From: Hericium rajendrae | Taxonomy: Eukaryota; Basidiomycota; Agaricomycetes; Russulales; Hericiaceae | NCBI GenBank assembly: GCA_033439255.1 | Contig: CM065885.1 | Location: 868,001-932,000, forward strand | DNA: 64,000 bases | Direction: 5' to 3' | Part shown: positions 7,855 to 30,082 of the stretch, piece after piece | Position numbering within the stretch: the first letter of the stretch is position 1 | Layout: the number at the start of each line of letters is the position of its first letter | Translations under genes and position numbers: made by a program | The notes under the pieces: model-generated | What the model was told of the DNA's origin: nothing | The model's input: only the letters and a program-made list of their open reading frames with translations | Database searches by the model: none

Positions 7855-9594
7855 CCAAGTTTATAGTCTATTTAAGGTTGCCCCCATGTCTAGACTGTAG
7901 GTACAAATGTGTGTGATGCATATCGTCCGTCTCGTAACACTGTGCCTGTCCTGCTCGTTCTCCCCCTCATTGCCCGCTGGGGACATTAGGGTATGGGCGG
8001 CCTTGTAAAGGTCATTTGGGTTGGGCTAAGCCCGATCGCGTTGCCGTGTCCTCGTATCGGCGCTGGGGGCAATAAGCCACCCGCGTTGGATCCATGTCTG
8101 TTGTCCATCCCTCCGCCTCTCTGCTGCCTCTGCTGGTGTCACCTGAGCGCGTCGCCGTCGGCGCCGTCCGCCATGTTCTTGAGGAAGTCCTCGTGCCGCA
8201 GGTGCGAGTGGTTCACGGACCAAGCTCCCGGCCAGTCCCGCAAAACGCTTCGACTCATAGATAAATCGGAATAGATCTTCAATGTGGGCCCCATCGTTGA
8301 GTAACCGCTCCAAGCGAAATTCGACGCCGCCGACTGCCCGCCTCAGCCGGTAGCGCGAGTTCGCATGCGCTGGGCATGCCATCACGAAGTGGAACACTGA
8401 TTCCGGGCGCTCGCCACACGCCGGACAATCAGGTGAGTCCTCCTTCTTGATGCGGTGAAGGTATGCCTGAAGCGGGATGTGCTCCGTGCGCAGTTGGATA
8501 AGCATCGCGGTTTGACGTCTCGTGAGGTTGAGTGAGGAAACGAGACGTCGAAAGTGTGGGGATGGGGATGTTGGGTCGATGCGTCGCAAGCGTTTGCTCG
8601 CAGATGACAGCGCACCGGTGTGATGATCATGATTCTCGAAGATGAGTCTTGCGCGTTTTTTGAGACGTGATCTGAAACTTTGCCTGATCGCCGATCGCCC
8701 GTAGGGCAGAGGACCTTGGAGGACTGTTGGAAGGCCTTCGACACCGCGTCGCCCGAAATATTCATCACCCCGAGCTGCCTTCTTCGCCGCCTCGTCACAC
8801 AACTCATTGCCCCGTACTCCTTTGTGTCCTGGGACCCATCGCATAGACAACGCTCGATCCTCCCTCGGTCTCCTCGCCAGGAGTCCTTCCACCTCGTCAT
8901 GTAGAACATCGAGCAGATAACTGCCCGACGTGCGTTCGAGGCCGCGAGTCGCGCGCAAGGCAGCAACATTGTCGGCACCTATGGAGGCGGGACCTCGTGC
9001 CCAAAATGTAGTTAGTAAGACGGTACCCAGAAGAATGCCAACCAATTCAGCCTCGTAGACTGTGTGCGTGTTTGCAGCCCCCAAATACTTCCGTAACTCT
9101 GCCACTTTCCTCTCTCCTTTAAATATGATCGCCGCTGCGCCCACGCCCTCATCAATCATCGACCCATCCGAGTAAACCCGCCATGTGTCTGTGTTGGTGC
9201 TTTCCGCTTTAAGAGCATCCTCCTTCGAATCCTCAATCGAAATCGGGAAGGACGGTAGCCATGCCGGCGTGCGGCGCGCCGTAGGGATGGTTTCGAGATT
9301 GTCAGGATCGAGATGATATGCATAGACGAGCCGGTCGAGTGGCGATTGAGGCGTCTCGTCTAGCTCGCGTGCGTGGAAAGATTGGCGCATGTATTCATGT
9401 AATGGATGCTTGGGCGGCACAGTGGCTAGGCGCGTGAAAGCATTGTGACAGGTCTTGTCTACGAGCAACTCAAAGGGTAAGAGGTCAGCATGTGCATCAA
9501 GGGAAGTATTGGGAGTAGATCGCAGAGCACCAGTGATGCTTAGAGCAGCACTGCGTTGAACGCGAGCGAGAGCGCGAATGAGGCCCTTGGTACG
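7816..9594 (-). mobile_element. 5'-truncated non-LTR retrotransposon (LINE, Tad1-like), RNase H end
   Basis: Read on the minus strand. The remaining open frame (about 9594 to 8026) begins in the RT thumb/connection region ('ALARVQRSAALSITGALRST', '...LPFELLVDK'). It runs into an RNase H domain with 'VYSDGSMID' (first Asp), 'YEAELVGIL' (Glu), 'GADNVAALR' (Asp) and 'WVPGHKGVRGNELCDEA' (His/Asp). A zinc knuckle 'CPACGERPESVFHFVMAC' follows, and the tail is basic. A 3' UTR of about 170 bp ends in a 41-bp poly(A), seen as poly(T) at 7814-7854. The endonuclease and most of the RT are absent, as expected of 5' truncation during target-primed reverse transcription. The frame is still open, suggesting a recent insertion. 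Assignment to the Tad1 clade is from the RNase H plus CCHC layout and is tentative. Confidence 0.9.
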
Positions 9595-18281: not shown

Positions 18282-19035
18282 TGTTTACGATATCGAGGTC
18301 AGGGTCGACTGCTGAAGTGAAGGATGTGAGGAGAGGAAGGCTGTTGAACATCCATCTCAATGTCAAGGCATCTTTATAGTAAAATACGACCCAGCTTCAG
18401 TCGGGCTTTCTTTCCGCCTCACATAGACCCACCTCCTTCAAGAAGCGGCGGGACTGACGCGTCATGATCCGTCAGTACTGACGGATCATGACGCGTAGTC
18501 GAAGATAGCGGCATAATCCAATCGAGGTAGGTCAAGATCGGCGTTAGTGACACTGAGCAGAAAACTATTCGTCTGTTGTCGATGTTCTCGCCGACAGCAA
18601 CACCATGGGACCAAGCCAGTGCAGAAACCGGGGCATAATGGGTGCGTGGCGTTATGGAACAGGCTCTAGAACTGCTATTCGATGCCGAGTGCTGATTATT
18701 CAGATGAAGCAGGGTGTTAGAAAGCATGCACGCCGAGAAGTTCGATAACGAAGCTAGGGACGAATACCTTATAGCGGGTTAAATTTGTAGTGAAAAAAGA
18801 CACTTACCAGTACAGCTTCGTCGTTGGGAGATCTCGCCCAATGAGAATACTTTCGCCGTGTGCTCGCCATACTTCAACTTGCTTTCTGAAACGAAGGCGG
18901 GCGACCGCGATAAGAATGGGCGGTGGAGATGACTGGAAAACCAATCAACCAATCACGGAGTCGGGACGCCATGATGGCATGCATCAAATAACATCTTATC
19001 TTATCGGACAAGATGCGCCCTTGTAAATGTCACTG
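18282..19035. other. Intergenic; promoter of the reductase and flank of the transposon
   Basis: Holds the 40-bp palindrome (18457-18496) and a GATAAGATAAGAT word on the minus strand (18993-19005). No gene recognised. Confidence 0.5.
18457..18496. promoter_or_regulatory. 40-bp perfect palindrome upstream of the aldo/keto reductase
   Basis: Two 20-bp arms meet at a central GTAC with no spacer and every position pairs; four more pairs (GACT/AGTC) extend it beyond a single bulged G. Each arm carries ACGCGTCATGATCCGTCAGT. A dimeric regulator operator, a terminator-like hairpin, or the remnant of a small inverted repeat are all possible. Confidence 0.75.
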
Positions 19036-19174
19036 TACACGGGCAGCAAGTTGATTCTCGATTTCAAACAATTTCAGTGATTTGTGATCTGGCTCTCCAA
19101 AATTGCCCAGATCGCCCAATTTGATTGCTCGATCACAGAAATCGGGCCGATTATGTAGTATCGCCAATCCTATT
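19036..19174 (+). repeat. Left terminal inverted repeat of the transposon
   Basis: Aligns with the reverse complement of 29966-30082. Strongest at the outer 16 bp and at 19137-19174; the middle holds about 20 extra bases including GCCCAGATCGCCCAATTTG. Confidence 0.7.
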
Positions 19175-19371
19175 GTTGTGGACAGACAATCTGATCTGAT
19201 ATGACGAACTCCTGAATCCAGATTGTCGTATATACCAAATCAGCCCCATTTGTAGTCAGCGGCCGGCGCGTAATGACATGTACATCCTTCTGCACAAGCA
19301 AGATCGTTGTGAACGTGGTTGGCGGGCAGTTTCTTCGAATGCAAGACGACAAGTATTATTCAGTCGAGTAA

Positions 19372-20600
19372 TTACTGATGCTGCGTCTTCTGCCTTTTAG
19401 GCAGCCGCATGTTCGATGGCGTGCCGGCTACAATGGTATGCAACATGTCTCTCTCGTAGTTATTCCTCGAGCCCGCTTCCTCCTGGGTCCCCTCCGCCGT
19501 ACTTGCATGGTATTCATCTTGCTGTACGGTGCTTGAGGTCGCATTTCCCTGCGCGCCTAGTTAGATGACCGTGAGACGATGCCGTGCACCCCGTGTTGAA
19601 CAACGACTCACCATCCATACCCCCATCTGCCTCCTGCACTGCCGTTTGGTCCGGCTCAGCTGTCTGCGATCCTTCCTTCTGTTCGAGACCGGTGTCGTTT
19701 ACCTTGTCGGTCCCAGAATCCACCTGCCACATCTCTATCTGCGAATGGAGTCTGTCCGGTATTACCCCACCGAGGCACTCAATCTCGGCCTCCAGTTCGC
19801 CAATGTACCACTGTTCGGCCTTCCTTTCGCATCGGTTAGCCTCCAGCATCTCATATTTTTCCGTATTGTCACTCTCCAGCTCAGTTAGGTCCTGCTGCAT
19901 CGTGGTTATTGTGCACCACAAGTCAAAAATCTCGGCCTTCAATGCAGCGATTTTCTCGTCCGCACCCTGGTGATTCTCGGTCGCCAACGCAGCATTTTGA
20001 TCGGCGCTCTGGCACCCCTCAACCAGGAAATTAATATCTTCTGTGTCAGGTTTCAGGTCAATGGCTCATCATGCTGCGGTGTTTGGGCTTACCGTGGTCC
20101 TCATCTCCTTCAACTGGGGAGATGCTATCATCTGCGAGCAATGCTTCCCCACCAAAATATTGGGTATCCGATGTCTGAGAGTCCAGGGCACCTCCTGGGA
20201 GAAAAAGGCTGTCCGTTGTACTGAGTGAGCTTGCAGGTCTGACGACGAGACACACACGCACCGGAGTCGCCCAGCGGAATTTTTGCCAGCCTGCGCTGCT
20301 CGACGCCCTGACCTTTTCCTCTCGGGAAAAGCCTCTTGAGATGGAGCTTGTGACAGCACATATTCCTCGTCGTCTTTTTCCATTGGACTTGACAGCAATG
20401 ACCTTGAACCAGTGCCCTGAAGTCCGCACGGGTTGGGCGTGCGGATGAAGGAGAGACAAGTCACACGGCGCGGGTCTCCCCAAATTGTGGCGGGCTGGTT
20501 TCAGGTCAAGTCGAGAGTCAGGGTCACTGCGCAAGGGTTCTCTGTGCACTCGTCCTTCCGCCAGCTGCTCTTCTGTCTGCCTGATTCGATACGCTTCCAA
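19372..20600 (-). CDS. Transposon accessory protein, coiled coil with C-terminal basic motif
   Basis: The C-terminal two exons are clear. After an acceptor at about 20027 comes 'CQSADQNAALATENHQGADE', a long coiled coil ('KIAALKAEIFDLWCTITTMQ', 'DLTELESDNTEKYEMLEANR'), an acidic linker, a 54-bp intron, then 'GAQGNATSSTVQQDEYHAST' and a C-terminus 'NMRLPKRQKTQHQ' that looks like a nuclear localisation signal; stop at 19372-19374. The upstream exon keeps an open frame through 'FSREEKVRASSSAGWQKF' to about 20600, but there is no ATG in that frame, so the first exon(s) and true start are unresolved; 20600 is only the limit of the open frame. Divergent from the transposase, so the two share a short promoter or overlap. 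No family recognised. Confidence 0.5.
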
Positions 20601-20654
20601 ATCATTAAATGTCCCTTCCCGATATTCATTGGGACAGCTCTGAAGACAAGTCGG

Positions 20655-23600
20655 ATGATGTCCTCCGACGGCCCCAAGGTATTTATCTCATACCCTGTCT
20701 TTTGTCCCTCCGTTTATATGTTCCTTTCAGCCTTTCTTGCATGTGGCCGCTCGAGGTTTCAATGCCTTGTTTGTCCATCCCCCGAAATTATGGGTCTTCA
20801 AAAAGCAGTGAGACATGAGGATATGGAAATCCATGTTCGCAATGTCTGTAAATTTGACAACACACCCCCTTCGACCGATCCAATAGCGAGTATGATGGCC
20901 CCTACACCCTCATCCGGAGATCACGATTTCAGAAGCCAGGCTGCGCCTGGAAATGCCCATGAACCGGACACAACACTCACTCTGCCGCACCCGGTGTCCA
21001 CAGGAAACAATCGTTCCCAGCATCTTGACACAGCAGATGTTGTTGATGAGTTGGTTGTTCCTGAAACAATAGCTATCCATGGACCCGCGCTTCCCAGCGA
21101 CCCACCAAATCAGCTATTCGACGATTATAGTGGCCTGTTCGGTGCTGTTTCTCAAGAGCCAATAATAGGAGCCCCCCCTCGCGTACGTTCTGCTTGGTGG
21201 AATCAGACGGCTGAGGCTGATCGGAGCGAGGATGACGATGAGATAGATCTTTTCGATGCGCTGAGTTCCGTTGGGTCAAGCGACGGCATGACACAGGATG
21301 AGGCCGATGACAGCGACATGGATGATACCTTTTCTAATGGCAATGTTCATGAGTCGTCAGAGGATTTATTGGGTTCGCTTCCTGCTAGTCTTATCAAACA
21401 AAATATTTATACTCATCGATCCATCTGTAGAACATGCCTCGAGCGACGGAGTCCGCCTAGCTGACGATGATGAGTGATGGCCATGGAAGACCCAGAAGGT
21501 ATATTGATACGTGGAACTGTCGTTCTGAATCACGCTAACCAATTTACCACAGGAGTGTCTGACCGACCTTTTAAGTGCTTTTCTGTGTGCCGTCTTTTCT
21601 GAATCCGAGCTAGAAATCACTCGCTGGTATGCAAGTAAACTTGGTGTCAAGAAGCTGCCGAAGATGCATGCCCTGAAGCAGCGCCGTGCACGCATTCTTG
21701 AGCTTGCAGGCACGGAACCCAAACTTGTCGATGGGTCTCTGGGGAACTTGTATTCGGTGGCTAGCCTAAGCAAAATTATTGCTGATGTGCGTACTCTCCT
21801 TATTCTACATACCTCTTTCTTATCTTTTGTTAGGAAATGGCAAACCCAAAAGTACGGCCACATCTGCATTTCCTTCCGGCCGACAACAACAACGATCATT
21901 CAGAGGCTCGTCATGGGGCTCGCTGGAGACATGAGGTCAACGCGAACATAGCAGGGCCTATGGCCCATGGAACAAATGATCAAGATTACTATGTGGAAGA
22001 GCCGGCTGTCGCAAATATTGATGACTTCAGGACGCTGGGTCCCGTATGGCCCATTCGATGGTTTGAGCGAGACGGAAAGACTTTTGCAATAGTTCATCCC
22101 CTCCGGGTCGACAGCGACATCACCTGTTATATGATAGATGCCTCGGAATGTTGGGAACTTCCCTTACATGCATTTGTTCTCAACTATCCCAAGCTCACTG
22201 CCGTGCATGCATTCCACGGACTACCACATCCCAGTAATGTCAAAGGTATCGTACATTTTCCTAATACAAAGGCTGCTCTCACGGTCGTTGTCAGGCTCCA
22301 AGACTCCTGCTAGTGCTAGCGATTCACCGTCATATTCAATCACGCTACCAAATCCATGGCGAACCAAAGCGAATGGCCTTCGCATCAAGTCACTGCCAAT
22401 GTGGCTTTACTGTGACGATACGTCCGGCAATGTGTCGAAGAAGTGGAATAAACATAACTCTTTCCTCTTCATTCTTGCCGGGCTTCTACAGGAACAGACT
22501 CTCAAGCCATACAATATACATTTCCTGTCGACCTCGAACCTCGCCTCCCCATTAGAAATGTTGGAGGCCATCGCGGCTGACTTGCGGTGTGTGATGAATG
22601 TGGGCTCATAGCTCTGCATCCTCAATTTATGCTTATACATTATGGCAGCACGTTGCAGACCGACGGACTTCGTGTATGGGATGTTGAACACCATGAGTAT
22701 GTTCTGGTCATCCCATGGATTCTAGCTTTTCTTGGCGACAATCCGATGCAGAGCGAGCTCGTGTCGCACATCGGCCTAAATGGAAAGTTTTTCTGTCGCA
22801 TCTGTAAAGTACTAGGCAAAGCCAAGGAACGTCCTACTGGCACTGCGGGAGAGATTGACCGTATCTGTGAATTCATGAAGGTGATGTCATTACAGATACT
22901 GATCTGGAGACATATTAATCGACAACTGAGCAGGCCAGAACTCCTCGGGTACTCAAAGACACGCTCAAAGTCTTGGGCGAGCAAATCAATGACATCATGG
23001 CAGGAATCCCATCGCGTGTCGACCCCGCCAGCATGAAAAGTGGTATAAAAGACAGACACTTCGTACCTCTCTTTGAGGAGCTCTCTGCAACATGTACATC
23101 AGTTCGGCAGAATAACAAAAAGCTCAGCAAGAAGGACACCAATGAAGGCCTTCTAGAGGCTTTGAAGAAAGTGGTTGGGGACCGGACGCCTGCCGACATA
23201 TTGAATCCGGTATACAAGATTCGAGGTCTGTAACTCATGCATATTCAGGCTGAGCATCATAATCTACAGAGTTGACGTGATATTTACAGAACTCGACCCG
23301 CATGCAGACATGCCAGTTGAGATCTTACATGTAGTCTTGTTAAGTATCATCAAGTACTTCTGGTGAGATGCTGTATCAAGGCAGAACTCTGTTGACAGGA
23401 AGGTTCTTCGGACTCGCCTTAAGAGCCTTGATGTCTCAGCCTTGGGTCTTAGTCGCCTCCAGGGAGACACACTTGTCAATTATGCTGGTTCGCTAACCGG
23501 GCATGATTTTCGGATCATGGTACAAGTCGCCCCCGCTGTTCTATATGGCCTGCTTCCGGAGCCTGCATATGAAGCATGGCTCGCATTGAGTCATCTCGCA

Positions 23601-26600
23601 CCGTTGATTTTTCAGCCCATGATTAAAGATGTTGACGAGTACGTGGTGAGTGCGAGTCGTTACTTGACATGATGAATTCTGACTTACGCCATGTACAGAC
23701 ACGTCTGCAGGCTGCCATTGATAATTTCCTGGGTGTGACAGCGCTTTGGTCAATCCAATGGTTCAATAAACCTAAATTTCACATTCTGCTGCACTCTCCT
23801 TGTAAGAGGTCTAGGGTTAGGGTCAAGAGATTCAGAAGCGGAAGGGCTTGATTATGTAACAGTAGTCACTTCATCCTCTTACTGTCATCGTAGCTGTTAG
23901 TTTTCCCCATAGAGTGGATTCCAACGCAGCTCGACAGGTGTGACTCAACCATCACCCCCATCTCCCTTACACTTTTTTGCGTTGCCGATCTCTCCATTAA
24001 CTTGGTAGGGACTGTAGGCTTCTAGCAGGTTAGGTGATCACACTGTTCGCTCCGTTGTGGCGTCAGTTTTGCACCGATTCCTATCGTTTTGGCATCGTTC
24101 GAACCGCGCGGATCGTACCTTTCGAACGCTGCCCCACACGCGAGGATTGGATGGGCAGAAGTTGCGGAGCCGTCGGGTTTTTGGAAGGTGATGGAAAATT
24201 AGTGATTGGGCAATAACTCGGGATCGAAGGCACGTAACATGTTCATCTTAGGCTCGTTCGAAAGCGTCACTCCGCAGCTTTCGATCGGTTCATCATACAT
24301 GTCAATCGGCCCACCCATCGTCGCGCGGCGATGTAATCATTGCTCCCATCCTCCTCCCCCCAGCTCTTCCTGTATCTCCACCAATTCTCCACCATTTCCC
24401 TCGTTCCAGGGCTCGTTCTATTCGCGTTCATCAGCCCTTTCACGCCATACCAAGGTTTCAATGCTATCTGAAGTCTTCCATACCCGGTTATACGATGTTT
24501 CCACTGCCTGTGCGGCCTACCTTGCAGCAGAACCCTCGGGGGCCACCTCTGCTGTGCAGTTGCTTGCAACTCCGTGAAGATTGTCCATTTTATCCCTTTC
24601 CTTGCAGTACCACCATCATACTGCCCCTCCTTCGACTTCTCGCTCGACACCGCTATCGTCCTGGACATTATCCCTACACACCTCTCTTTGGATGTGGTCA
24701 TGGTTCTTGGGGGCCTTGATCGAGTAGTATTTCTCTCTACGCGCCCCGCCATGTGCCCCCATATCGGCTGCCGACTATATTGGCAGGTGAGGTTTTGGTT
24801 GCATTCTCGTGCAGCGCTCGTTGCGATCGCACAGGAGTGTTTGGAGAATCTTGGTTGGTCTTTATCTTTTGGATATGCTCATAATATCCAGGAACTCTCA
24901 TGCTTGCTCTTCATCCTTATCCATTCATCCTATCCTTTCATCACTCTCATCTCTGTTTCTTGTGGACTCGGGATCGTGTCCAGAGGGGGAGGGTGTAAGA
25001 GGTCTAGGGTTAGGGTCAAGAGATTCAGAAGCGGAAGGGCTTGATTATGTAACAGTAGTCACTTCATCCTCTTACTGTCATCGTAGCTGTTAGTTTTCCC
25101 CATAGAGTGGATTCCAACGCAGCTCGACAGGTGTGACTCAATCATCACCCCCATCTCCCTTACACTCCTGAACATATCTGATGATTTGGACCTGCTATCC
25201 TGACAGCCACGGAGGGGTTTGAGTCATATAATCTCGTCATTCGACTACGCAGCGTCCACTCGAACCGCCATGCTCCGAGTGTTGACATTAGCACTAGCAT
25301 GTCATTTATGCATGCTGCCCATCATTTGGTCAGCGGCGGGTTGGTTTGAGAATCCAAGTCGGCACGCCTTCCAAGAGCAGCAGGTCGCAGTGTCCAAGAC
25401 CTGCTGAATGATGCGGTCTTTAGCAAACTGATGAATATGCCAGACACTGACACAAGTTGTCGTACGTGAAATTTATCTTTATCTTTATCTCAATAAATAT
25501 CTTACCATTCGAATCAGACTCCCACACGCGCATGGCCCATTCCATCACCATGCCCTTCAAACAGACTCTTACCGTGATGACAGCATCACACCGCCCACCG
25601 CGTGCTGTCCAGGATGGTAGCCTTTCAGTCATGGCATTGCCGAAGCTGAAGCTCCTCGATGGCGACATAGCACACAAAGGTCATTTTGTTGTCTTTGAAT
25701 CCACTAGTGGGTCGCTGGATCTGGGTCGCATCAAAGAGATCTTATGTGTCAAGTCACAGCCTTATGGATTCTTGCTCGAAAGATGGCACATTGGGGAGGA
25801 GGTGCTTCCCTATCGATTACCTGCCATATCGCCCATGAATGAGCTGCTCTTTGTGATCTACGATGTAAGTCAGTCCCTCATAACTATATATGCATGCATT
25901 TAAGTTAGCTGAGACGTTTTCAATAGCGCATCAAATGCTCTGTCCATGCCTTTCATAATTGTAAGCGACAGGCATGCAAGACGTCGAGGACACGTGTCCT
26001 TGTTCAAGAACGACAGGCCACAGACAAGCGGGACCTCGAATATCGGCACGAGGATGGACCAGATGATCTTATTCTCAATCTGGCACAGTTTCGCAGTGCT
26101 ATGGTCACGCAGGAATTACGGGCACCGCCCAACTTCCCTCTCCAATATACTGTCAGTTCACGCGGGACCTCAAGCCCAGTACAAAGCCCTGTTCGAACCC
26201 ACGACTGCAGTATTCCACCACATCTCTTGCACGGCTTGGTCGAGGTTGCAGTCAAGGCATATGATGCACAAAAAGAGATGCCCCCGCCCCAGAAAACAAC
26301 GGCTGGAACGAGGAAACGGAAGGCAACAGGGTCAAGTGTGCGCGGCGCCAAACGCGGACGGCCCTCGCAACCCACAAGTCGTAGCACCCAGGTCTCATCA
26401 AGAGCAGGTATGCCTGTCATAGTCGCTGCGTCACCCATGCCTGCATATGGAAACATAGTGAGCGCGTACACCTCAGGCCACGGGAATGGGTATGAGCACC
26501 CTAGCATGCAGTCCGCCACATCACCCGCGCCCGCATATGGAAACATAGCGAATGCATACACCTTCAGCCAGGGGCATGGGTATGAGCACCCTAGCATGCA

Positions 26601-27312
26601 GCTCGCCACATCACCCACGCCTACATATGGAAACATAGTGAGCACGTACACCTCAGGCCATGGGTATGGGTATGAGCACCCTAGCGTGCAGCTCGCTGCA
26701 TCACCCGCACCCGCATACAGAAACACAGCGAGCGGGCACACCTCGAGCCATGGGCATGGTTATGAACACCCTATCGTACTGCAGGTGCCTTCATTCGTTG
26801 TTCCTACAAACCAGCCTCACTTAGCTTATCACTATGATCCAGACTACACACTTTATCATTCACAAAATCTGCCGTCTCCTTCACTAAACTACTTACATCC
26901 TCAGGGAAATCTCGGGACACCATCATATCAGCATAGTCCATGGACACCTGGGCAAATGCCAAGTACCCCCGTGTTGCACCAGACTGCTCTGAGAGCCACC
27001 CCGGCTACACCGAGCACCTCGAGAGTCGTACAATACCCGGTGGCCAACTGGACTTATGAAGACGCACCTTATTCTCTGGGCGGCTCCACTTACTTCGGGT
27101 CAACGCCGAGTGCTATGCAACCACTTCCAGGCTTGCCAGCCTCAGTTCACGATGACCTGGTCTCGGAATATGCAGAAGGTGGAAATGCAATGTATTTTGG
27201 TAAGTTCGCATCATGTCAAAATGCAGCATCGATCACTTACTCGTTGCCAGATCCCCAGCGTGGAGCCAATTCTCAGCCATCGCAACAACCCCTCTATTAT
27301 CCACCTCGATAG
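20655..27312 (+). CDS. Transposase-like protein of a family expanded in agaricomycetes (interrupted)
   Basis: Starts MMSSDGPK, then a C2-H2-like finger ('FQCLVCPSPE', with H at 'RHEDMEIH'), an acidic low-complexity region, and 'ECLTDLLSAFLCAVFSESEL'. Core segments follow: 'KANGLRIKSLPMWLYCDDTS' and 'GNVSKKWNKHNSFLFILAGL' (the 'DDTSGN' signature), 'NIHFLSTSNLASPLEMLEAI', 'VIPWILAFLGDNPMQSELV', 'HIGLNGKFFCRICKV', 'ELDPHADMPVEILHVVLLSI' and 'TLVNYAGSLTGHDFRIMVQV'. An LTR element (23801-25164) sits in the exon after 'HILLHSP'; family similarity resumes beyond it ('GFESYNLVIRLRSVHSN', then 'VLVQERQATDKRDLEYRHED'). The C-terminal tail is P/S/Y/G-rich with four 30-residue repeats. Short frame interruptions follow the insertion. 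I know this protein type from many mushroom genomes but not under a formal name; a DD-type catalytic role is inferred. Confidence 0.7.
23801..23971. repeat. Left LTR
   Basis: 171 bp, TGTAAG...CTTACA. Contains TAGGGTTAGGGT, two telomere-like repeats, near its start. Confidence 0.9.
24994..25164. repeat. Right LTR
   Basis: 171 bp, one visible difference from the left LTR. Confidence 0.9.
26431..26790 (+). repeat. Four tandem 90-bp repeats in the transposase tail
   Basis: Units begin at 26431, 26521, 26611 and 26701, each starting TCACCC. They encode 30-residue repeats of the form SPxPAYGNI...Y(T/S)S.GHG.GYEHPSxQ. The unit length is a multiple of three, so copy number can change without loss of frame. 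Confidence 0.95.
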
Positions 27313-28203
27313 CAACGTACGTAAACATCCATTGAGTCGATGGCATAGCTAGTCATTGAACATTCGCAGCAGAGGGGAAGCAGCCGTATGGTGAGGGACA
27401 GCGTGAATCGAACAGTTGGCGCAGGCGTGTGCCACTGTGGTGGACTTAACGCGATAGATCGATCTGTGATGAATAGCAAAGATGGGTGCTGGCCGATGTG
27501 GATGGTCTGGTCGCTGTGTTCAAGAGCAACTCGCAATGTGTGATTCGGGATTGTGCAGATGAAATAGAGTCTTTTGTGAGATCATCAAGTCTGTAAGTTC
27601 GTGTGAGACGCTGGTGAGATGCCCAGGCAGAAGATCGCGCCCACTCAAAGTCCGCATGCCACGCTTCCTTGCAGTGAATGCCGTCGCCTCTGTCCCTTCA
27701 CCGTCCGTTGCTTCACTCTGTTTCTGGCCCTTTTCTTTCTCCCCCTTTCTTTGACTCTGAGAGATGAACGGCATGTCAGCATGCTCTGATAATACCACCC
27801 AAGCTACGTAATGGTAAGCTAGGCCAGCAAGTCATCTGGCTTCGAGACTGTTAATACAGGATTGGCCGTGCTGGCCGTTCGAGTGCTAGAATATGCCGCA
27901 GGAGCAGGACTGCAGGAGGTTCGTCATCCCAAGTCGCCAGGGCAGTCGTTCGACATCCGCACTGGCAGGAAAAGTCGAGGCCTTCTTGCACGTCCTAGTA
28001 TTTATTTATCACCATTTGTTTTCAATTTATTTCAGTCTGAACAAGAACGGCTGACTGCTGAGTGGCCACTGGAGCACATCCCAAGTGAGCGAACGTGTGA
28101 CTGCCATCACGTGGCACGTGCCATTCCGGTGAGGATTTTTTTCGGCGTTGTCTGTCAGTGGACTGATCCTGCTGCTTTGTTGCTCGATCCTCTTCCTCCC
28201 AAC
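27313..28203. other. Spacer between the two plus-strand transposon genes
   Basis: No protein family seen. The frame upstream of the companion gene is open from about 27862, so an earlier start is possible; the stretch is otherwise featureless to me. Confidence 0.4.
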
Positions 28204-29765
28204 ATGGCCTCACAGCAGCCTTCGACGTCGCGACAGCCTGCCCCATGCAATGTGGGTCCCATGCGAACACTTTCTGGCCACGTTCAGCCTAGCCTATATG
28301 CGAACTCTCCACGCCGACAGCTGTCTCTCACAGACAACAATGGGTTGCACCGGACTCAGTCGCTCCAGTTGCTCAGCCAGTTCAGCCAAGGTTCATCCAG
28401 CCAAAGCTTAGGTGATTCTTCTTATCCTCCGACGTCCGGAAATTACCTTCCAGCAAGAACCTCCGTCGAAGAAGGGTTTTTTGGATCGGCGAATGTAGGT
28501 CCAAGCATGGCATATGGACCGCCAGCTGCTGCAATCGTGGATGGCATCGCTAATCAGCTCAAGCTCAAGGATGAGCACCGTATCGAGCTACATACTTTCA
28601 GCCAAGTAAGTTTTTTTCTGATCGACACCAAATTTGTCCCGTTAACCATTTCACGTACCCAGGCATCTATCACTGTTCAGAACATGATGATATACGGCCA
28701 TCTCATGCAGCACGATGAACAAAATGAAGAGATTCTTACCGTCCAGCATGAGACTGTGGACAGGGTCGAAAGCGTGGAACAGCGCACGAGCCAGGGATGG
28801 CAGATGGCGAAAGTACAAGAGGTATGTACATTTCTCATATCTGCCTGTTCCGCACAAGGTGAGATATGCTGATGCACTCATACAGGAAATCCTCAAGGAA
28901 CTTACCCAACACTGGTTGACAAAACCGGTCAACGCCTACGGCAAGCCCCTGACCCGAAGCCTCGAGGTGAGCTTGAAGATATACTTGTCTGATCCACTCA
29001 ACTGTTGTCTCACATACTGTGCAGAAATACATATCGCAGAATGCGGTGAAGCTCCACCTACCGTTATACAACAATGACCCCATCATCAAGCGGACCGTGG
29101 AGAAATTCCTCAATAGTTATCAGACAACGCAGCGCAGGAACAACCTTCGAGGCGTATGTATTGACTGCGCAACGATCTTGTCCCGTTCTTATTAATGCGG
29201 CCTTCTTCTTTCTAGTTGATCGAGTCTATTGCACGAGATGACACCCTCGATATGTACACAACAAGGATGTTGAATCTATATGCCCAAGGTCCCAATAAGA
29301 AACCAACCAAGGCAGTAAAAGCGCAGTTTGCCCTAATGGTACGCAGCATGCTGAATATTATATATACATGCCAGACTAATGTGATCATACAGCACTTTGT
29401 TCAAGTCAGGCTAGCACGTGAGGGACGCAACCCTAAGGCATTCTGGAAGGACATGGACAGCAAACTGACCCATCTGGTCAAAGAGAACGGAAGGAGCCGC
29501 AAGGCCACGAAATGGGAACAGTAAGTCTTTGCTTCTGCGTTAGTGACGGCATTACTGAATGTATTCTAGATGGTATATGAAGATGATCGAGGATGACGCG
29601 AAGGCCTTCAGGACCTATGACGATGAACACTTGACAGGCCTCAATTTGGATGCTGAGAGTGACATCAGCGACCAGGAGGAGGGTCCCGCTGAAGGTGTGG
29701 CTGATGAGGAGGCTGTCGCTGAGGATTTTGCTGAGGGTGTCGCCGAAGGTGCCGAGGCATACTAG
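28204..29765 (+). CDS. Transposon companion protein of unknown function
   Basis: N-terminal half is low-complexity, S/Q/P-rich ('MASQQPSTSRQPAPCNVGPM'). The structured part starts 'IANQLKLKDEHRIELHTFSQ' and runs through 'ASITVQNMMIYGHLMQHDEQ', a coiled-coil-like 'ILTVQHETVDRVESVEQR', 'EILKELTQHWLTKPVNAYG', 'NDPIIKRTVEKFLNSYQTTQ', 'RRNNLRGLIESIARDDTLD' and 'REGRNPKAFWKDMDSKLTHL'. It ends in an acidic repeat 'AEGVADEEAVAEDFAEGV'. Six short introns were read (for example after 'HTFSQ', 'KVQE' and 'KWEQ'). Proteins with the 'FWxxxDxxLxxL' C-terminal part often accompany the 'DDTSGN' transposase in agaricomycetes, as I remember it. Start chosen at the ATG at 28204, which has a good context (CCAACATGG). 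Confidence 0.65.
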
Positions 29766-29965
29766 AGTCATGTTGAAGTCCTTAGTAGTAAAGTGGTGAA
29801 ATAAACGGTATTCATTGCCAACGGGTCTATATAACCTCTACAGAGTGTATATCTAACAGGGAGAGCAACATATTATCGCGGGACAGCAGGCAGGATAGAC
29901 GGGAGGCATGCCGAGACATGCCGATGCATGGCATGCCTGGGCGTCTGCGATAGACGGGATTGAAA

Positions 29966-30082
29966 AATCAGATTGGCCATTAAACATAGTCGGCCCGATT
30001 TGCCATCCTGCCCAATCTGATTGCCCTTTGTCGTGAATCACTCAGATTTAAGATTTCCGGAAATTGACTTGCTACCTGTGTA
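29966..30082 (-). repeat. Right terminal inverted repeat of the transposon
   Basis: Reverse complement matches the left end. Subterminal copies of an AATCTGATT-like word lie here (29966-29974 and 30012-30022), a usual form of transposase binding site in other DNA elements. Confidence 0.7.

Follow-up and report, generated by a model that had tools for sequence, protein, structure and literature searches.

The transposases of the CMCT clade share a signature of D, D and E with two C and three H, in which C(2)C and H(3-4)H motifs lie between the second D and the E, and their elements have CA..TG termini and target duplications of 2-5 bp (PMC12730594). In that paper, PlavakaA is given TGT..ACA termini with a 2-bp duplication, PlavakaB CATCA..TGATG termini with a 2-3-bp duplication, rust EnSpm CAC..GTG termini with a 3-bp duplication, and Zisupton an 8-bp target duplication. 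The same paper gives the name ESTA to EnSpm-like elements from rusts with a TA duplication, which were identified through their HHpred similarity to RAG1; the three described ESTA families carry a TET/JBP dioxygenase, and Data S1 contains ESTA without TET/JBP (Kojima 2025, PMC12730594). An earlier paper reports four fungal CACTA-like sequences (PMC1636069, 2006). In this study, we analyzed a three-gene element of about 11 kb (C8:887036-898082) in a 64,000-bp stretch of the Hericium rajendrae genome, contig C8:868001-932000 (the window), and compared it with the rest of the genome (46.8 Mb, 19 contigs).

We found that this element is very probably a cut-and-paste DNA transposon with three genes, a CMCT-related DDE transposase, ends of about 140 bp and a TA target. 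Observed were defined ends, a TA duplication, integration as one unit, three copies that each carry the same three genes, conserved proteins, and homology of the predicted transposase to the CMCT group. Of the CMCT features, the element has D, D and E with C(2)C plus three H, CAC..GTG termini and a TA duplication. A preliminary description, made from the window sequence alone, had proposed an 11-kb three-gene DNA transposon at this place, and the proposal was borne out by homology with a copy on contig C6, by matching ends, and by the one-piece insertion of a third copy.

Ends, copies and target site

A genome search with both ends revealed a single long relative, located on C6, along with a short C5 element that bears both ends. 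The C6 copy (C6 280228-290221, minus strand, 9,994 bp including its TA) is about 70% identical to the window copy, and the homology starts exactly at window 19036 and stops exactly at 30082. The third long copy, C8b (C8:99775-119985), has the same start, and its right end lies past a sequence inserted between the second and third genes. In that insert we read a long open Ty1/copia polyprotein frame (C8:107001-111000; RVT_2, E 1.4e-48; integrase core, E 2e-11). The long copies are placed separately: C6 has one, and the two on C8 are separated by about 0.77 Mb. Gene order and orientation agree in all three, inside matching ends.

The left terminal inverted repeat (19038-19177, plus strand) consists of an outer block CACGGGCAGCAAGT, a middle block GTGATTT and an inner block AAATCGGGCCGATTATGT, and the right one (29963-30080, minus strand) reads inward as CACAGGTAGCAAGT. 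The outer blocks of the two window ends are TACACGGGCAGCAAGT and TACACAGGTAGCAAGT, as in the preliminary description, and the inner blocks (19139-19177 and 29963-30001) are 79% alike over 39 nt. When the 160-bp ends of the window copy were aligned with each other, the score of 38 was above all 500 dinucleotide shuffles (maximum 29), in agreement with the long imperfect inverted repeats proposed before; the ends of the C6 copy and of the short C5 and C12 elements were likewise above all 500. In an alignment of nine ends, TACAC was invariant, and an outer (G)SYAGCA, a middle GTGAT and an inner AAATCGGGCC recurred, with departures, for example in C8b and the short C12 element.

Searching the genome with a pattern of the outer and inner blocks gave five matches (window, C6, C5, C12 and C7), and the reversed-pattern control gave none. 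At C12:1017358 and C7:2864227, a 790-bp end-bearing element together with both flanks, 3.1 kb in all, is 99.8% identical; since the flanks share this identity, the two places were counted as one insertion that was recently duplicated. The two short elements, 763 and 790 bp in size, have the same ends as the long copies.

All five insertions (window, C6, C8b, short C5 and short C12) read TA-CAC...GTG-TA, and no longer repeat was found outside the flanking TA in these three long and two short elements. To separate a TA duplication from a TA borne by the repeat itself, we linked the two flanks of every insertion through a single TA and used the resulting sequences as queries against the genome. 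Nineteen matches were obtained, 12 of which were flanks of known copies (the duplicated C7 site accounting for two) and seven other places. The C8b insertion site lies within repeated sequence, and five of the seven other places cross the C8b junction, those on C1, C9 and C13 at 95-97% and those on C6 and C5 at 83-84%; the remaining two are partial matches that stop short of it. The five empty sites read GCGAAAAG-TA-GGATT with one TA, and the occupied C8b site reads GCGAAAAG-TA-(element)-TA-GGATT. The single TA at the empty sites indicates that the target duplication is TA and that the termini are CAC...GTG. The same sites show that C8b was inserted as a single unit that already contained the three genes.

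The outer TA on each side of the window copy (19036-19037 and 30081-30082) is therefore its target-site duplication, and the element proper spans 19038-30080, or 11,043 bp. The preliminary description had drawn the limits at 19036-30082, exactly where the homology with the C6 copy begins and ends, so that they needed trimming by the outer TA alone. Its statement that there was no clear target duplication had to be given up: the comparison of occupied and empty sites that it suggested defined both the CAC...GTG ends and the TA duplication.

We then looked at where the three genes, A, B and C from left to right, occur in the genome (counts for A and C are lower bounds). Gene A was found at no fewer than three loci (at least 3; nine match pieces) and gene C likewise at at least three (15 match pieces); these are the same three elements, window, C6 and C8b, with none elsewhere among the detected matches. 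Gene B, the transposase, has nine loci: these three, near relatives on C11 and C18, and four of DDVSGN type (C3, C5 twice, C6); for C18 and these four, the sequence covered was the neighborhood of the transposase gene. In the genome search, six of the nine gene B loci showed no sign of genes A and C, which may be absent there or too diverged. The preset test of whether ends and genes go together, run within the present genome, supported the unit, as all three loci with detectable A or C have the ends; the association is looser than proposed in one respect, namely the six transposase loci with no detectable A or C. These six loci, and the decayed state of the window copy, are what one would expect if an old transposase gene happened to neighbor two genes of the host and the inverted repeats were coincidental. 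Such a chance cluster is extremely improbable, given that three separate copies share gene order, orientation and matching ends, and that the C8b empty sites join the two sides of the whole three-gene unit.

Three other sequence features were seen near the ends or the relatives. The subterminal repeat AATCNGAKT was considered as an end feature and left unused; it is asymmetric in the window copy (0 in the first 250 bp versus 5 in the last), and none was counted in the 790-bp element. A perfect 40-bp palindrome of two adjacent 20-nt arms lies at window 18457-18496, about 540 bp outside the left end. The C11 transposase relative is enclosed by a 207-bp inverted repeat, 100% identical (1923-2129 and 9135-9341 of the C11 stretch), with ends AGTTCAACTC...CCCCAAGT and more related repeats alongside, which we do not claim as element ends.

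The transposase and its relationship to named families

Gene B (about 20609-27312, plus strand) is a multi-exon gene with approximate start and exon limits, and it is broken in the window copy. We aligned four divergent gene B sequences (alignment A1, numbered by the C6 copy) and found D244/D245, D328, C347, C350, H470, H590, H594 and E611 invariant, so that gene B carries the full CMCT signature of D, D, C(2)C, three H and E. The first catalytic Asp probably sits in the CDDTSGN motif (22414-22419), where either of the two Asp may be catalytic; it was assigned by its place, because the alignment with Plavaka described below begins only after DDTSGN. In the alignment of nine copies, one of these two candidates is replaced by Asn in C8b, as is one in C3d. 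The predicted second catalytic Asp (22737-22739, in GDNPMQSE) is invariant in A1 and stands opposite ADYPEQ of Plavaka and GDMPA of Transposase_21. It is followed by the C(2)C motif CRIC (22794-22805; A1 and both the Plavaka and Transposase_21 alignments), the H(3)H motif HILLH (23780-23794) and the putative third catalytic residue, the Glu of TEGFES (25212-25214), the last two placed by A1 and the Plavaka alignment; all of these are on the plus strand.

In a genome search, five Plavaka-type loci were matched by the last third of gene B, with identities of 26-27% and a best genome-wide E of 5e-5. For profile comparison with hhalign, we used nine gene B copies, eight of which were kept by the program, and 14 Plavaka loci spanning from before the first Asp to past the last Glu; the latter replaced an earlier, short and shallow profile from one long open reading frame, which had given a probability of 0.8%. 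Gene B and Plavaka aligned with a probability of 94% (E 1.2e-7, score 65.3); the highest of 20 column shuffles scored 20.9 and the reversed profile 19.3. The paired motifs are GDNP with ADYP, CRIC with CPKC, EILH with DILH, HILLH with HSLVH, and TEGFES with TEMFER. Compared with two EnSpm Transposase_21 proteins from the genome, gene B scored 34.7 (E 0.0017) over the half from the first to the second Asp plus C(2)C, with controls of 21.5 (best of 20 shuffles) and 16.8 (reversed). Judged from these profiles, the predicted gene B protein is homologous to CMCT transposases, namely to Plavaka from the second Asp to the Glu and, more weakly, to EnSpm/CACTA Transposase_21 in the half between the first two Asp.

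Several results weigh against the reading as a CMCT-related three-gene transposon, in addition to the six gene B loci where A and C escaped detection. Of the five insertions, C8b alone yielded an empty site, and the genome search with joined flanks found none for the other four. The C8b ends taken alone form a weak inverted repeat, whose score was reached by four of 500 shuffles. Gene B was over no Pfam cut-off, either as single exons of the window copy or as the spliced C6, C18 and C5 copies, and genes A and C of the window, searched in spliced form, were over no curated Pfam cut-off. A PDB profile search with gene B gave chance-level non-DDE matches only, with no DDE enzyme and no RAG1. The alignment of gene B with Transposase_21 has a probability of just 15%, and the Plavaka profile against the two Transposase_21 proteins scored 20.6, within noise.

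Could the element be an ordinary Plavaka or EnSpm/CACTA that has merely diverged? Gene B has profile homology to both Plavaka and Transposase_21. It resembles Plavaka over the second D, C(2)C, three H and the E, and 2-bp duplications occur there too. The CAC..GTG termini are those of the EnSpm families of PMC12730594, plant members of EnSpm/CACTA also have a second, DNA-binding protein, and EILHVILLG of the C6 copy resembles the animal CACTA-like motif L/V/I-D-X-L/M-H-X3-L-G of PMC1636069. However, the genome matches include at least 132 pieces of PF18759 (Plavaka) and at least 31 pieces of PF02992 (Transposase_21), and among the matches listed none of either lies within C8:887036-898082; nor was either found in the spliced C6, C18 and C5 transposases. 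The CAC..GTG termini are unlike those given for PlavakaA and PlavakaB in PMC12730594, the companion genes differ from those of Plavaka, and the 3-bp duplications of the rust EnSpm families in that paper differ from the TA found here. We therefore consider an ordinary, diverged member of either family improbable.

ESTA membership is a more serious alternative, which we regard as possible though on balance doubtful. In PMC12730594, ESTA has the CMCT motif set, a TA duplication, CA..TG termini and a fungal host; the TA read from empty sites, the CA..TG termini, and the C(2)C and H(3-4)H motifs between the second D and the E of our element agree with this description. A TET/JBP gene is not required of all ESTA, as Data S1 includes members without it, and their hosts could include mushrooms; in our element, no Pfam match over cut-off for TET/JBP was found in any of the three genes. 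On the other hand, the described families come from rusts and carry TET/JBP, whereas the present element carries two other, unnamed genes. The PDB profile search used here, weaker than the HHpred search that showed RAG1 similarity for ESTA, gave no RAG1. ESTA was compared by its description, and the strongest relative tested in the present genome is Plavaka. Overall, the element departs from the tested features of Plavaka and EnSpm; its structural layout is that described for ESTA, and its termini are like those of EnSpm.

Zisupton and KDZ are also large fungal DNA transposons with extra genes, but the 8-bp duplication given for Zisupton in PMC12730594 differs from the TA here, and the present proteins were over the cut-off of no Pfam family. 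Tc1/mariner was rejected, as the TA duplication is the sole likeness and there is no Pfam support, and so was Helitron, since the element has inverted repeats and a target duplication.

For the three-gene transposon that we favor, a mechanism can be proposed as follows. The gene B DDE transposase would bind the ends of about 140 bp and cut beside the terminal CAC/GTG, and the element would then insert at TA and duplicate it. Genes A and C would be carried along, and their products presumably assist, perhaps by binding the ends or by taking part in assembly of the complex. Our guess on genes A and C is based on plant CACTA elements, in which TnpA works alongside the transposase.

The proteins with DDTSGN or DDVSGN, which we take to be very common in mushroom genomes without a family name, may be the transposases of a separate CMCT lineage between EnSpm and Plavaka, TA-targeting and with three-block ends of about 140 bp, one branch of which would be mobile only as a unit of three genes, two of them for proteins of unknown kind. 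On this wider proposal we are evenly balanced. In the open-licence literature searched, no description of DDTSGN proteins as a transposon was found in titles and abstracts, and no paper contained the string DDTSGN. Now that the ends, target duplication and gene content are established for a transposase family outside Pfam, such genes can be annotated as mobile, rather than as host genes of unknown function. As a TA-targeting CMCT element, it joins ESTA, the one lineage of this type that we found in print, and has a bearing on shifts of target preference within the CACTA/Transib/RAG1 group. The proteins of genes A and C are two new accessory proteins offered for testing.

Companion genes and decay of the window copy

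As the preliminary description had it, three genes lie between the ends, with gene A on the minus strand, gene B encoding the DDTSGN protein and gene C a companion; gene B proved to extend past a nested insertion to about 27312. Gene A (19372-20500, minus strand, exon limits approximate) was placed by protein-level matches to C6 and C8b, and its predicted protein has a coiled-coil-like stretch, identified by eye, and a basic PKRQK stretch. Gene C (28204-29765, plus strand) is predicted to encode 405 aa in seven exons, open from ATG to TAG, with six introns that are all GT-AG. A phmmer search of the PDB with gene C gave chance-level matches only, none significant, and similarity of A or C to anything named was not detected in Pfam or, for gene C, in the PDB.

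We report selection as the ratio of nonsynonymous to synonymous differences (pN/pS), because the synonymous sites of gene B are saturated. For the window copy against C6 and C8b, respectively, pN/pS was 0.52 and 0.52 for gene A, 0.29 and 0.31 for gene B, and 0.45 and 0.48 for gene C. These values are consistent with selection on the proteins of all three genes, and the constraint is least on that of gene A.

Gene B of the window copy is interrupted by a TRIM-like mini-element (23801-25164), which lies downstream of the H(3)H motif and upstream of the putative catalytic Glu. It has two 171-bp long terminal repeats (LTRs), TGTAAGAGG...CCCTTACA, that are 99% alike with TG...CA ends, and is flanked by a CTCCT duplication (23796-23800 and 25165-25169). 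As this is a later guest of 1.36 kb, the element without it measures about 9.7 kb, and the size of about 11 kb given earlier holds for the element as present in the window, guest included. Two in-frame TGA codons follow in gene B (25179-25184, plus strand), and a further TGA was read near the end of an upstream exon (21475-21477); the C6 copy is open at both places. With gene B interrupted and carrying stop codons, the window copy would be unable to make a whole transposase and, as predicted from its sequence, is dead.

Two minor observations concern the same region. Within the C-terminal open frame of gene B lies a 90-bp tandem repeat of 3.8 copies (window 26431-26773). The LTR of the mini-element occurs at six places in the genome, and a pair of LTRs 5.1 kb apart on C14 (226243 and 231369) may mark a full-length relative of it.

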